Assembly: GCF_003781945.1 (NCBI RefSeq)
Contig: NZ_RJJW01000004.1
Span: 152,824-216,823 of the forward strand
Direction of reading: 5' to 3'
DNA length: 64,000 nt
Source: Halorubrum sp. CSM-61
GTDB taxonomy: Archaea; Halobacteriota; Halobacteria; Halobacteriales; Haloferacaceae
Numbering within the stretch: the stretch's first letter is position 1; every line of letters starts with the position of its first letter. Positions 53,531 through 58,738 of this stretch are shown one piece after another. A model generated the notes under the pieces. That model did not search any database. It saw only the letters and a list, made by a program, of their open reading frames with translations, and had not been told where the DNA came from. The position numbers and the translations under genes were made by a program.

Positions 53531-54210
53531 TGCCCTCGACCGTCGTCCACTCCGGGTTCGCGCTGTTGCTCGCGGTCGCGCTGCTCGGCGACTACTACGA
53601 CCGCCGGGCGCTCGCGGCCCTGCTCGTCGTGTTAGTGCTCCCCGAGGCCGACAGCTTCCTCGGGCCGATCATGCCCGGCGCCCACCGATCGGTCGGGCAC
53701 AACCTCGTCTTTCCCGCGGTCGGCGCGCTGCTCCTGTACTACGACACCCGCGTTCGGGACCGGTCGCTGGTCCGCGACCGGCTCTCCGACCGATGGGTCG
53801 CGGTCGCGTGGGTGGCGATCTTCGTGCACGTCTTCGCGCACGTCGCGCTCGACTGGACCCACCTCGACGGGGTGAACCTCCTCTGGCCGCTTCGGGACGA
53901 GTTCTTCGCGCTCGACGGCGAGATCCTGCTCTCGACCGCAGACGGGTTCGTGCAGACCTTCGTCGACGTGCGGGTCGACCCGGAGACGGGCGCGCGGAGC
54001 GTCGACGCCGGAACGACGGGATCGACCGAGACGGTCCACGTCAACAACCCGGTCGAGCCGCGGGACCCGGATATCGTCACCGAGGAGCCGGTAGACCGGC
54101 GCTTCCCGATCGCTAACGGCGGCTGGCGGCTCTACCTGATCGGGGTGGGTCTCTTCGCGCTCGTCGCGAGGCGGTTTCAGGGATCGGGGGCGGATGTCGA
54201 CGTGGAGTGA
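53530..54210 (+). CDS. Membrane protein, metal-dependent-hydrolase-like paralogue 2
   Basis: This 226-residue membrane protein is homologous to the preceding gene. N-terminal helices surround VVHSGFALLLAVALLG and VVLVLPEADSFLGPIM. A histidine-rich region AHRSVGHNLVFPAVGALLLY and HVFAHVALDWTHLDG suggests a metal site. Like its partner it has the LDGEILLSTADGFVQTFVDV segment. The arrangement suggests a tandem duplication followed by divergence. The gene ends just before the lower-GC island. Confidence 0.78.
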   Translation: MPSTVVHSGFALLLAVALLGDYYDRRALAALLVVLVLPEADSFLGPIMPGAHRSVGHNLVFPAVGALLLYYDTRVRDRSLVRDRLSDRWVAVAWVAIFVHVFAHVALDWTHLDGVNLLWPLRDEFFALDGEILLSTADGFVQTFVDVRVDPETGARSVDAGTTGSTETVHVNNPVEPRDPDIVTEEPVDRRFPIANGGWRLYLIGVGLFALVARRFQGSGADVDVE

Positions 54211-54498
54211 CTACGGGGAACCTCGTTCCAGTCGCCTCGTTATCGTCTTCTCGGCGCCAGAGTGGTGAAGAGGAAGCAGTTCTCCGCGCGTTGGCCCTCG
54301 ATCGGAGAGAGGGTGTCAGTCACCTCGTTCATGTGGCTGTTAGGCCGACGATCGGAGAAGGAACGCAATCGTCGTCGAAAACCACTCCATCACGTATCAT
54401 TTCAGCTATGACTTTCGTTGGAGTATATATGCGAAATCGTGTATATTCCGGATGGTGTGGGGATACGCTTATTTGAGGATGTTATCTACAATTAATAA
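54211..54498. other. Start of lower-GC island, no gene seen
   Basis: These 288 bases have visibly lower GC than the left flank, and no supported open frame is found. AT-rich motifs near 54420-54498 (TTGGAGTATATATGCG, CAATTAATAAATG) could act as promoters of the following small gene. Confidence 0.55.
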
Positions 54499-54717
54499 AT
54501 GAGTGACATCGAAGAAGCAGTTCTTGTCGCTGTTGGTAACACTGTCTCCAAGAAAGCGATAGAGTGGGTACAGAGCCGCGGCCCAGATTTCTCTGAGACA
54601 GACTGGAAGCAGACAGCAGGACCGGTCCTAAGACAAGTCCGTGCTTCCCACGAGCAGTTTAGAACTGGATATCAGGATAAGAATGTCAATCGGAATGACT
54701 TACAACCGATCGCATGA
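54499..54717 (+). CDS. Small hypothetical protein in island
   Basis: This 72-residue protein begins MSDIEEAVLVAVGNTVSKKA and has no cysteines or membrane segment. It is preceded by CAATTAATAA, a possible TATA-like box immediately before the ATG, so the true start could differ. Codon use is AT-richer than in the flanking genes, in keeping with horizontal transfer. No family is recognised. The small size makes expression uncertain. Confidence 0.55.
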   Translation: MSDIEEAVLVAVGNTVSKKAIEWVQSRGPDFSETDWKQTAGPVLRQVRASHEQFRTGYQDKNVNRNDLQPIA

Positions 54718-54735
54718 CGGCGCAGAGCAGCACGG

Positions 54736-55485
54736 TCAAAGACCGTAGAGATCCTGAAGATCTTCGTGTTCTGGCAGGAGTTCTTTTTCGAGCAGGAAGT
54801 TTCGGTATCTCTCATTCTGTTGTTTACGCCTTTCCTCTACATCTTGGATATGCGCTGTTGCTTGTTTCGCCTCGTTTACTTCATCACAAAAGGTGTCGCG
54901 CATTTCTATCATCTGATCGATATTATGCTCTATGACAGCTTGGTACTGCTGGGGGTGCTGTGCAGTTTTCAGCCATTCGTGCGTTTTACCGTACGCTTTT
55001 ATCTCGTGGTCCATCATTATCGCGTACGTTTCAGGCGGCCCCCCGGAGCTAGCGAACTGCACCACGTGCAAGGCCTCGTGGTAGAGGAGAATTCGCCAAT
55101 AGACCTTTTCGAGAATAGTATTTTCTCCCAGCTGAGGGTCCGGACACTGGACGTAGACCTCGGTTGAGGAGTTGGTCCACGCTTGGAGATTGGAGGTTTT
55201 CATCTCTTGGTGTGGGTGCCTGTATTTCCACTTGATCGTCACACCTCGCATCAGGTTCCGACGGGGAAGCTGCGGAAGGAGGTCGCTCCACGCGGCTCTC
55301 GCCCTGTGAACGAACGGTGGTTCCTCGCTGGTTGCCTTGTACCCCTCGGTGACGGGATCGCAGGTGGTCGTCGGAACGGACTCAGTACTCCGACTGTCGT
55401 CGAGTACCCGATCCGCCGGCTCGTCGACCGCGCGGTCACCACCTTCGAGGACATCCGTGCGCTCCGCCTCTTTGTTGCCGCTCAT
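54736..55485 (-). CDS. Putative HExxH metallopeptidase of the island
   Basis: This 249-residue protein has an acidic N terminus, a central domain and a charged helical C terminus. Residues 136-140 read HEALH (codons 55080-55066) within LLYHEALHVVQFASSGG, a zincin-like HExxH motif. A downstream acidic residue in MMDHEIKAYGKT, 21 residues later, could be the third ligand. The pattern recalls DUF4157-type HE..HVVQ proteins; this is only similarity in a short segment. It starts two bases after the stop of the 615-residue gene and is probably cotranscribed. The substrate is unknown. Confidence 0.68.
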   Translation of the reverse strand: MSGNKEAERTDVLEGGDRAVDEPADRVLDDSRSTESVPTTTCDPVTEGYKATSEEPPFVHRARAAWSDLLPQLPRRNLMRGVTIKWKYRHPHQEMKTSNLQAWTNSSTEVYVQCPDPQLGENTILEKVYWRILLYHEALHVVQFASSGGPPETYAIMMDHEIKAYGKTHEWLKTAQHPQQYQAVIEHNIDQMIEMRDTFCDEVNEAKQATAHIQDVEERRKQQNERYRNFLLEKELLPEHEDLQDLYGL

Positions 55486-55487
55486 CG

Positions 55488-57335
55488 CTAGTCCGACCCT
55501 TCCTTATCTCCGGCCTCCTCGCGCTGTTGCGGGTGCGGGTGGTTCGACAGGCGACTCACGAGATCTGTGCGTTCCTCGTCGTTGTCGCGGACCGCCGAGT
55601 TAGCGATCTCGTCCAACTCCGCTTTGGCCCGGCTGCCCGCGACCTCCACCTCCCGCCGCTCAACCTCGAGCCCTTGTAACTGCTCCGCGTACTCGTCCAA
55701 TGCGGTGCTCGTACCCAACAACGATTCCACCATAACACCATCAGTCCGCATGGAGTTTTTCGTCGCCGACATGATGATACCCGGCACCCAGATCTCGGTT
55801 CCAGTAATTGGGTCGCTGTACGATGAGGTCTTCTCGGAGCGTACCCGGTGATACCTGTTGTCCTCGTCTATCTCACGTTCCTCGATGAAGTCGTCGTGCA
55901 GGTTCCCCTCGTGGTCGAGAATACTGCCAAGCGAGTCATGAATGTCTGTCCGCACTCGGTCACGCTGGTCCGTTTTCACGTAGGTTTCCAGGAGTGAGTC
56001 GAGTTCCGGCAAGGTAACTTCGTCACGAGATTCGGTAAAGCCGTTGAAGAAGGCGACGCGCACATCCACCAGGCTTGAGATGGTGATGAACTCCTGGTTC
56101 ATCTGCCGAAACACGAAGTTCAGGGTGCGGCTGAGATTGATGTTCTCGATCTTGCGTTCGGTGGACCTCTCTTCCTCTTCGATTTCCCGTGATTCGTAGC
56201 TCGTGTCCACTTCGACCTCGCGCTTTGCCGACGCCTTCTGAGCGTGTTTGTCGGTCGCAGTCGTCGAATTCTTCGCAAACTCCTCGCGTGCGGAATTCGT
56301 CCCGCCTTTCACACCAGCGTCCATGTTCGCGGAACCCCACCCCCAGCTCGCGTTGGCCTCTGCGTTCGAGTGATATTTGAAGCTCTTTTCGTAGTCCTCT
56401 TTACTGGATTGTTCGTTCTCAATCGTCCGTTCGAAATCAGTGGCACTCTCTTCAGTGAAGGAATCGAGGATGCTGGACGCCTCTGTTCGTTCTTTTTCTG
56501 ATTTTCGGAACGTCCTGATCGAGATCGTCGTCCGCTCGCCGGGAAGCAGGCTGAACGTCTGAATGACTTTTCCGGCGCCGTACGAGCCCAGATAGGACGC
56601 GAGCCGGTAGGTCTCGACGAGCAGAAGCGACGGTTCGACTTCGGTAGTCCTATCGATGGTTCGGGGGCTTATCGTTCCGTACATCGAACTGTAGAAGGCC
56701 AACTCCTTCCCCATTTTTTTCGTTTCTACTATTTCTTGGGCACTGAGTGACTGCAACGCTTCACTCACGGGGCGATCGGTCTCGAGACTCAATGGTGACT
56801 TTTCGGAGAAGCGGAGTTTTCCCGATCTGACCCGTGCGTTCGGGAGGATGTGCTTGTCGGCAAACCCGCTTTTCATGGACCGTTTGACTTGCGCTTCGAT
56901 CTCCTCGTCGCTCATCTGAGACACGTCGATACGGAGAGGCTGGACTGTCCCATCTTCGCCACCCGGAAGGGACGGTCCACCGGGAAACCTCGGGTCGTCC
57001 GGATTTATCGGCTTCCCGGGAAACCTTGGATCCTCCGGTGGTTCAGGGTCGGGTTCGTCCGGGGGCTCGGGATCGGGTTCGTCCGGAGGTTCAGGATCCG
57101 GTTCATCTGGGGGTTCGGGGTCCTCGTCGTCTGGGGGCCCAGAGTTATCGTCGTCCGGTGGCACAGGGGCCGGTTCGGGACGCCCCCAAGCAGCGGGGGA
57201 GAATAGATCTTCATCGTACTCGAGCTCGATGAAGTTCTTCCCGAAATAGATTGCCGGCTGTGGGATGTCGTAGCTGAGTATCGGTGCTCTTCCACCCGGT
57301 TCCAGCTGAATCAGCGGTTCGTTGTTATTCGACAT
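55488..57335 (-). CDS. 615-residue island protein with proline/acid repeats and coiled coil
   Basis: A short N-terminal region (residues 1-50) is followed by a Pro/Asp/Glu-rich segment with repeats of PEPPDEPD (about 50-103) and a Pro/Gly linker. A large conserved-looking domain (about 190-480) includes LLPGERTTISIRTFRKSEKE, ASWGWGSANMDAGVKGG and LNFVFRQMNQEFITISSLVD. A charged coiled-coil-like C terminus follows (about 545-582). There is no signal peptide and no membrane segment. I have seen this middle-domain pattern in bacterial proteins of unknown role. Upstream, an AT-rich TATTAAAATAAAT box at 57343-57355 serves the start. Confidence 0.75.
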   Translation of the reverse strand: MSNNNEPLIQLEPGGRAPILSYDIPQPAIYFGKNFIELEYDEDLFSPAAWGRPEPAPVPPDDDNSGPPDDEDPEPPDEPDPEPPDEPDPEPPDEPDPEPPEDPRFPGKPINPDDPRFPGGPSLPGGEDGTVQPLRIDVSQMSDEEIEAQVKRSMKSGFADKHILPNARVRSGKLRFSEKSPLSLETDRPVSEALQSLSAQEIVETKKMGKELAFYSSMYGTISPRTIDRTTEVEPSLLLVETYRLASYLGSYGAGKVIQTFSLLPGERTTISIRTFRKSEKERTEASSILDSFTEESATDFERTIENEQSSKEDYEKSFKYHSNAEANASWGWGSANMDAGVKGGTNSAREEFAKNSTTATDKHAQKASAKREVEVDTSYESREIEEEERSTERKIENINLSRTLNFVFRQMNQEFITISSLVDVRVAFFNGFTESRDEVTLPELDSLLETYVKTDQRDRVRTDIHDSLGSILDHEGNLHDDFIEEREIDEDNRYHRVRSEKTSSYSDPITGTEIWVPGIIMSATKNSMRTDGVMVESLLGTSTALDEYAEQLQGLEVERREVEVAGSRAKAELDEIANSAVRDNDEERTDLVSRLSNHPHPQQREEAGDKEGSD

Positions 57336-57651
57336 CTATTTGTATTTATTTTAATACAGCATAAACATTATCTCGATATTATCGACAGTACCGATACGAA
57401 ACCTGTTGTGAACTGGTTATTGTATGTATAGTTCGTAGCCGCTGCTTACCCCGGCTGATCGCCCATCACGTTCCGGACTGTTCGAGGATCTAATAGTGGT
57501 CGCTCTGGAGTACCACGAAGGACGATTCCGAATCTGCTAGAGCGGAAAGATCTGTATCTAAACAAGTTCGAACTAAGCGAGTAGATTGTACAGGTTTGCC
57601 CTCCTACAGTCCCACAGAAAGCTTATAACATCCGATTGTTGATGAATTATA
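57336..57651. other. AT-rich intergenic region in island
   Basis: These 316 bases are AT-rich and lie between divergent genes. They hold likely promoters: TATTAAAATAAAT for the minus-strand gene (near 57343-57355) and GCTTATAACA for the plus-strand gene (near 57619). No supported gene or repeat is seen. Confidence 0.6.
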
Positions 57652-58469
57652 ATGAATCGGAGGAAACTACTTGCTACGGCAGGATCTGGGCTACTTGCTG
57701 GGATTGCAGGATGTGGTTCTGACAGCGGGGATCCAACGGATACGAATCCGCCGGGAGAGAAATCAGAAATTCAACTGAAACCACCGCAGGCAGACTTACC
57801 AGACGGTTGGGAGTTGAAAACCCCTGATACAGAGCCTCATGTACTACTAGAGGATTCCAGCTATGGGCTCGACTACACGGCAATCGGACACAATAGGCGG
57901 TACGAAGATATGGAACTCCGAGAGCGAGTCCGAGAAGAATTATTTGGCCGGTTCGATAGGCCTCTTGTCGTCGGTTTTGCCTCCCACGTCAAGCTCGAAG
58001 TGCTTGGTGGTAGTGTGACTGAGTCAATCGTAGTTCAGGCAACAGACAAGATCCAAAATAAGGCTGAATCAATATTTCAGACAAAAATAGAAGAATTCGG
58101 GCTTCAGGACATCTCGAAAGACGGAACTTACCAACACCAAGGAAGCCGTTCACCGAGTGAATTTCAAAAATTCACAGGAACTATCCTGTAGAGTCTGTCG
58201 AAATTGAGGATGTGGATATACCAAACGTTGAGGAAGAGAGCTTCACATTAGAGTCTGGACAGCTCGATGTTACGGGGCTTCTTAGTACTCATCGCCAAGA
58301 TAGCGCCATTTTGATCACGGGTGGAGTGTTCCCGAGTGAGAACTATATTCGTTCAAAGAACTGGGACATTACGGGTGGTGTTCATCTGGACTTGACAGTA
58401 GATCTGGGACTAAATTCGAATATACACCGGTCGGATATCGTGAATTTCGCTCAGAACGTCCACGTCTAA
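57652..58469 (+). pseudogene. Frameshifted Tat-type lipoprotein gene
   Basis: The N-terminal part (179 residues, ending at TAG 58189) begins MNRRKLLATAGSGLLAGIAGC. This is a twin-arginine signal followed by a lipobox ending in Cys, so it should be an exported lipoprotein. A second frame (58182-58469) continues with YPVESVEIEDVDIPNVEE and encodes the rest. The sequence near 58177-58184 reads GGAACTATCC; one T restored after GGAACT would join FTGT to YPVES. It therefore looks like one gene of about 270 residues broken by a single-base deletion. No family is recognised. Confidence 0.78.
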
Positions 58470-58583
58470 CCGCTAATCTTCGCGCCTACACAGTACCACG
58501 GGTTTGTCTGGATGCGATTCTCTTGTTTGGCGTAGAGAAGGATGCTTCTCTCGTTTAGCAACCCTCGTTATGGCGGAGAAATC

Positions 58584-58600
58584 GGAGTGGACTCGCGGGG
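58584..58600. repeat. 17-bp direct repeat of tRNA-Ala 3' end, att-like
   Basis: GGAGTGGACTCGCGGGG at 58584-58600 is identical to 58663-58679, which covers the 3' end of the tRNA-Ala gene. Such repeats are typical attachment-site copies. The 62 bases between them hold an 8-bp inverted repeat, GGTCCCGT and ACGGGACC. Confidence 0.6.
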
Positions 58601-58662: not shown

Positions 58663-58679
58663 GGAGTGGACTCGCGGGG
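58663..58679. repeat. 17-bp direct repeat, copy in tRNA-Ala
   Basis: This copy overlaps the last 13 bases of the tRNA gene (58667-58679). Together with the copy at 58584 it marks a probable integration site. No integrase gene is found in the window. Confidence 0.6.
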
Positions 58680-58738
58680 ATTTGAACCCCGGGCCTTCCC
58701 CGTGCCAGGGGGATGATCTACCACTGATCTACGAGCCC
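58667..58738 (-). tRNA. tRNA-Ala (anticodon GGC)
   Basis: Folded by eye on the minus strand: acceptor stem GGGCTCG/CGAGTCC with a G3-U70 pair (the alanine identity element), D arm GATC...GATC, anticodon stem TCCCC/GGGGA with loop CTGGCAC (anticodon GGC), T stem CGGGG/CCCCG with loop TTCAAAT, and discriminator A. Its 72 bases have no encoded CCA and no intron. A TTAATATATCC box (58765-58775) lies about 27-37 bases upstream of the 5' end. Confidence 0.95.

Follow-up and report, generated by a model that had tools for sequence, protein, structure and literature searches.

A conserved carrier and its exchangeable cargo: a probable two-component effector system in Halorubrum sp. CSM-61

A pair of adjacent genes in the haloarchaeon Halorubrum sp. 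CSM-61 probably encodes one copy of a two-component polymorphic effector system, which would act as an A/B binary toxin does, with many alternative A parts. The pair lies on the minus strand of the 64,000-nucleotide stretch of DNA analysed here (the window), where the gene for the 615-residue carrier P0006 (positions 55488 to 57335) comes first, and that for the 249-residue putative zinc peptidase P0007 (the cargo; 54736 to 55485), a protein without detectable relatives, comes second. Two bases separate the stop codon of P0006 from the ATG of P0007, and the ATG start of P0006 matches that of its relatives. An original prediction, made from the DNA alone, had already described a two-gene unit here, with correct coordinates, order and spacing.

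Conserved carriers and exchangeable cargoes

A profile scan for carriers returned 88 relatives, of which the best 80 were kept. Relatives detected in this way come from Planctomycetota, Zixibacteria, Bacteroidota, Bacillota, Actinomycetota, Cyanobacteriota, Gemmatimonadota, Pseudomonadota, Acidobacteriota, Lokiarchaeota and the haloarchaeon Salinigranum; a further carrier is encoded on a Sinorhizobium plasmid. The partner of each carrier was picked mechanically as the longest same-strand open reading frame (ORF) starting between -60 and +260 bp, so that a few assignments may be wrong, and about 15 loci, in which a contig end, a frameshift or a short or unrelated gene made the downstream ORF implausible, were excluded by eye from the cargo statistics. 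Across the 60 loci with a usable partner, homology is detectable in every one of the 1770 carrier pairs, but the partners form 46 clusters. Even near-identical carriers are followed by unrelated cargo, as in the locus pairs L080/L087 (98% carrier identity), L062/L081 (88%) and L058/L066 (85%). The cargo is a separate ORF in these 60 loci, rather than a C-terminal fusion to the carrier, and in most loci it is tightly linked to the carrier gene, frequently with an overlap of 4 or 8 bp. The architecture is modular, with a conserved carrier and an exchangeable cargo; toxicity, docking, pore formation and export, which are taken up below, are inferred. The carrier family, with its swappable effectors, is real and widespread and apparently hitherto undescribed; a search of the open literature turned up no description of it, though absence there is not proof.

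Domains recognised among the cargoes include peptidoglycan peptidases of the M15, M23 and M74 families, Tae4 amidase, YkuD (L,D-transpeptidase-like), Ntox44, Fic, M43, a GH5 glycosidase and a Hedgehog-type domain. The HExxH motif occurs in seven of 50 non-redundant cargoes against an expectation of 0.49, so that its presence in the set is not due to chance, and each copy sits in the hydrophobic setting typical of zincins. P0007 is one of the seven. The original prediction had taken the pair for one functional system, perhaps a toxin-related unit, and both suggestions are borne out to the extent that effector-type enzymes occupy the same position behind related carriers. It had also looked to conservation of the pair in other genomes: the literal pair is not conserved, and what recurs elsewhere is the two-gene architecture. 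Its other proposal, a secreted or surface assembly with a dedicated processing protease, now appears very improbable, because 46 types of partner occur and that protease is just one of them; gene adjacency and the HEALH sequence of P0007 speak for it, but the second gene in related loci is non-homologous and mostly lacks such a protease motif. P0007 is accordingly regarded as cargo and not as a dedicated processing enzyme.

Several individual loci deserve mention. The cargo in the haloarchaeal genome G102 (516 residues; L013:10347-11894) carries a murein endopeptidase (M74) domain without a signal peptide, and is a candidate archaeal antibacterial effector; murein is, as is well established, absent from archaea. 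The Paenibacillus cargo at L030:10540-11103 gives a strong match to the Hedgehog N-terminal signalling domain (E 3e-50), and in some loci (L027:9616-11242 and L087:1388-3498) one carrier is apparently followed by several cargo genes in a row.

The docking motif and the window cargo

Cargoes near the clade of the window's carrier begin with a short motif, L-[AR]-N-[ST]-[DN]-[RK]-V-L-x-[ST]-x-A, or in abridged form L-x-N-[ST]-D-[RK]-V-L. This was evaluated by eight-fold cross-validation against control N-termini from neighbouring ORFs, a procedure that replaced an in-sample search which had overfitted. Of 25 held-out cargoes, 13 had scores within the highest 5% of the controls (p=3.6e-11), against 0/25 in each of three negative control groups, and the density of the motif was 6.4 versus 0.5 per 1000 residues, a comparison that is partly in-sample. 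Because the motif is common to otherwise unrelated proteins, the cargo most likely docks on the carrier through it. The putative docking region of P0007 (residues 8-32, ERTDVLEGGDRAVDEPADRVLDDSR; 55390 to 55464, minus strand, as are all features of the two genes given below) contains weak copies of the motif, LEGGDRAVDEPA and DEPADRVLDDSR, with scores of 8.8 (in-sample) and 3.9. The Salinigranum carrier is followed only by an 87-residue ORF with a motif-like N-terminus (L045:9824-10084), which is possibly a decayed cargo.

The HEALH sequence singled out in the original prediction is present at residues 136-140 of P0007 (55066 to 55080) and forms a putative zinc site. An HExxH arises in 4.7% of shuffles of this protein, so a single occurrence is just mildly improbable. 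E161, in the sequence DHEIKAYG (55003 to 55005), lies 21 residues past the second histidine and is a candidate third zinc ligand from sequence only, the structure having given no confirmation. The elements of P0007 are predicted in the order helix-strand-strand-HExxH helix-helix, which would be consistent with a zincin fold, and the protein is probably a gluzincin-type zinc peptidase. No credible relative of it was found in plasmids, phages, 293 genomes of the order or the PDB; weak matches to MID_pPIWI_RE and to baseplate proteins were below the cut-off or marginal, and were ignored.

The carrier, pore formation and export

In 58 aligned carriers the segment between two helices has a mean Ser/Thr/Gly content of 0.37, versus 0.21 elsewhere, and its hydrophobic residues alternate (mean z of 1.65 versus shuffles). 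Such a segment resembles the membrane hairpins of beta-pore-forming toxins, and on the basis of this composition and alternation residues 305-352 of P0006 (56280 to 56423), which contain FKYHSNAEANASWGWGSANMDAGVKGG, are assigned as a putative amphipathic membrane-insertion hairpin with its flanks. When the carrier was compared with solved structures using Foldseek, the matches were mostly to beta-pore-formers (Tpp80Aa1, Cry35, monalysin, aerolysin, BinAB and cholesterol-dependent cytolysins). The carrier core showed no match in Pfam or NCBIfam to known pore-forming or binary-toxin B families. When predicted viral proteins were searched by structure, a single one matched significantly, an uncharacterised 642-residue protein of the giant virus Yasminevirus (BFVD A0A5K0U6Q4; E 6e-7, probability 1.00).

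P0006 itself matched no Pfam, PHROGs or NCBIfam model, and a sequence search of the PDB with the carrier was likewise without a match; its closest identity, up to 52%, is to a Planctomycetes protein (L015). The structure model (predicted local distance difference test score, pLDDT, 78.5; predicted template modelling score 0.71) has three long strands, at residues 236-263, 405-430 and 520-540. A conserved N-terminal patch at residues 6-40, EPLIQLEPGGRAPILSYDIPQPAIYFGKNFIELEY (57216 to 57320), is evident from the alignment of relatives, and its strand at residues 28-39 is modelled with high confidence. The Pro/Asp/Glu repeat recognised in the original prediction is real, spanning residues ~53-104 (57024 to 57179) with four tandem 24-bp units at 57028 to 57123, and the LLPGERTTISIRTF-type feature that it pointed out maps to residues 263-276 (56508 to 56549), where it constitutes the hallmark of the family, with P265, G266 and E267 invariant in the 58 aligned carriers. 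What had been called a coiled coil is the long C-terminal helix of the model, at residues 547-583 (55587 to 55697). In some carriers the N-terminal half, where the window protein has its repeat, bears immunoglobulin (Ig)-like, laminin-G-like or lectin-like bacteriocin domains.

On the two-component reading, the swappable effector, whose gene directly follows that of the conserved carrier, would dock on this carrier via the N-terminal motif. Since neither protein has a signal peptide, release from the producer would follow a non-Sec route, by lysis or otherwise. The variable N-terminal segment of the carrier would bind the target cell; the carrier would oligomerise, and its Ser/Thr/Gly-rich hairpin would insert as a beta-pore, letting the cargo cross the outer barrier of the target. 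The window cargo, as a probable zinc peptidase, would cut a protein of that target. A more far-reaching form of this proposal is put forward tentatively: that these units make up an undescribed class of binary translocating toxins, in which one beta-pore carrier family, shared by bacteria, Asgard archaea and haloarchaea and related in structure to a giant-virus protein, would be loaded with dozens of unrelated enzymes by a short linear motif, without a multi-gene secretion machine.

Several points tell against the two-component reading, which is based on computation. The window cargo ranks only in the top 11% of controls for the docking motif, and in a distant, mainly Bacteroidota cargo set the motif was not significant in the same test (1/27). 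The quality of the single-sequence model of P0007 (pLDDT 47.7) is insufficient to establish a zincin fold. The AlphaFold model of the carrier has helices around the putative hairpin, and the Foldseek matches to pore-formers are not significant (best E 0.076, TM-scores ~0.1), so that pore formation by the carrier is a lead and not a result. No adjacent same-strand immunity gene was seen for the window pair.

The lack of a significant pore-former fold would also suit a carrier that is a non-membrane scaffold, adhesin or chaperone, concentrating cargo enzymes on target surfaces, for example as a lysis-released antibacterial or degradative particle. The Ig, laminin-G and lectin domains of some carriers fit this idea, as does the fact that several cargoes (peptidoglycan hydrolases, GH5) act outside the cytoplasm. 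However, a Ser/Thr/Gly-rich alternating hairpin recurs across 58 carriers, and intracellular-type cargoes such as Fic and Ntox44 need entry; a pure scaffold is unlikely.

By hydropathy, no signal peptide is present in P0006 or P0007, nor in nearly all of their relatives, and the hydrophobic N-termini of a few relatives stem mostly from over-extended start codons. A further possibility is that a contractile injection system (CIS) encoded elsewhere, either extracellular (eCIS) or like a type VI secretion system (T6SS), uses the carrier as its tip protein, adaptor or loader and the small protein as its effector. The absence of signal peptides from both proteins would be accounted for, and the cargo repertoire (Tae4, M15, M23, Ntox44) is like that of T6SS effectors. 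Haloarchaeal T6SS-like CIS with toxin-immunity pairs are known (PMC11566945), and signal-peptide-less archaeal peptidoglycan hydrolases are somewhat enriched in genomes that have a phage sheath domain (PMC12352652). Of 50 carrier genomes, 15 have a PF06841 tube; the 35 that lack it include the window genome (G000, 99.95% complete), G102 and G282, the sheath family not having been searched for. A contractile injector is therefore not generally required, and the original prediction of an injection-like unit, if it means a contractile system, is not supported for this genome. Nor did any CIS genes stand out in the neighbourhood of the carriers, which was not inspected systematically. Taken together, a contractile partner seems quite unlikely. 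A further argument for the two-component reading comes from Bacteroidota, where in many loci the cargo gene is followed by one that overlaps or adjoins it and whose product is secreted or a lipoprotein, as periplasmic immunity proteins would be.

The island, carrier ancestry and known systems

The window pair lies in a segment of lowered G+C content (~0.46-0.64 over 54.2-58.6 kb, versus ~0.70 on both sides), as the original prediction had stated. This island (about 54205 to 58587) is a recent insertion, in a place flanked by a YdjM-family gene and a tRNA-Ala that is a hotspot of insertion in this genus: in the sister genome G349, collinear with the window on both sides, there is an almost empty site of 104 bp (L108), in place of the ~4,384 bp between 54204 and 58588; the same point holds 2.3 kb of other DNA in G342 and 6.5 kb in G004; and the tRNA-Ala (GGC; 58666 to 58738, minus strand, in the window) borders the site in each of these three collinear relatives. 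By eye, the G342 insert (L109:1981-4242) contains a lactate-permease-like gene, and that of G004 (L111:1830-8302) several genes, including a phytoene-desaturase-like oxidoreductase and an HExxH lipoprotein. The pair was said to lie alone in the island. It does lie within it, and shares it with a 72-residue ORF and with a haloarchaeal-type lipoprotein gene divergent from the carrier (57652 to 58469, plus strand), which a frameshift divides into reading frames of 179 and 85 residues and which is probably a broken gene. A hypervariable location and variable effectors might also be looked for in a conflict module that acts inside the cell, whether toxin-antitoxin or anti-phage defence, but PADLOC gave no match of note for the pair, some carriers have extracellular binding domains, and peptidoglycan hydrolases occur as cargo even in an archaeon (L013); such a module is very improbable.

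Carriers were found in three of 293 sampled genomes of the order, the window's own included and no other sampled congener among them, and in four haloarchaeal genomes overall. Matches in G290 and G028 proved to be low-complexity noise, hitting just the Pro-rich stretch. Phylogenetic analysis of the core places the window carrier with those of a planctomycete and the bacillus Evansella (SH-like approximate likelihood ratio support 96), apart from other haloarchaea; a single haloarchaeal clade is disfavoured, yet not rejected (approximately unbiased test, p 0.065). These sequence relationships make interdomain transfer of the carrier likely. A viral origin of the unit was set aside, no carrier relatives having been found in viral contigs or phage records.

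Among known systems, polymorphic toxin systems likewise join a conserved delivery part to toxin domains that can be exchanged, Ntox44 and metallopeptidases among them (PMC3482391), and the present unit would act as such a system divided over two genes. Near-identical carriers with different toxins and known toxin domains among the cargoes (Ntox44, Tae4, Fic, M15, M23, M74) are common ground; here, however, the toxin is a separate downstream gene and not the C-terminus of one polypeptide, and the carrier lacks a signal peptide and matches no known trafficking family. Protective-antigen-type (Binary_toxB) and Bin/Tpp toxins consist of two genes, one for a binding and pore part and one for an enzyme part, and the present unit has a comparable division between a binding and putative pore part and an enzyme. 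Unlike them, the carrier has no Pfam match to any of these families, is far wider spread, archaea included, and is accompanied by dozens of unrelated enzyme parts. With eCIS and haloarchaeal CIS the unit shares haloarchaeal antagonism and overlapping kinds of effector, but not the tube gene, which the window genome lacks. VARTIG, which is confined to Thermococcales and has a hypervariable Ig domain at the C-terminus as its defining feature (PMC8416519), is also archaeal and combines a large protein, Ig domains and variable downstream genes; by that description it is distinct, the variable domains of the carrier being N-terminal and its core conserved across bacteria and archaea. Archaeal antibacterial peptidoglycan hydrolases, of which the tested Woldo and Danwoldo are stand-alone Tat-secreted enzymes (PMC12352652), resemble the L013 cargo in being murein endopeptidases encoded by an archaeon, whereas the L013 enzyme has no signal peptide and is accompanied by a carrier.

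If the two-component reading is correct, bacteria and archaea alike would possess a compact two-gene weapon-delivery system whose carrier has so far gone unnamed. It would offer haloarchaea a route of effector delivery without a contractile tube, and could explain some of the archaeal peptidoglycan hydrolases that lack a signal peptide; new toxins would then be findable directly downstream of carrier genes.
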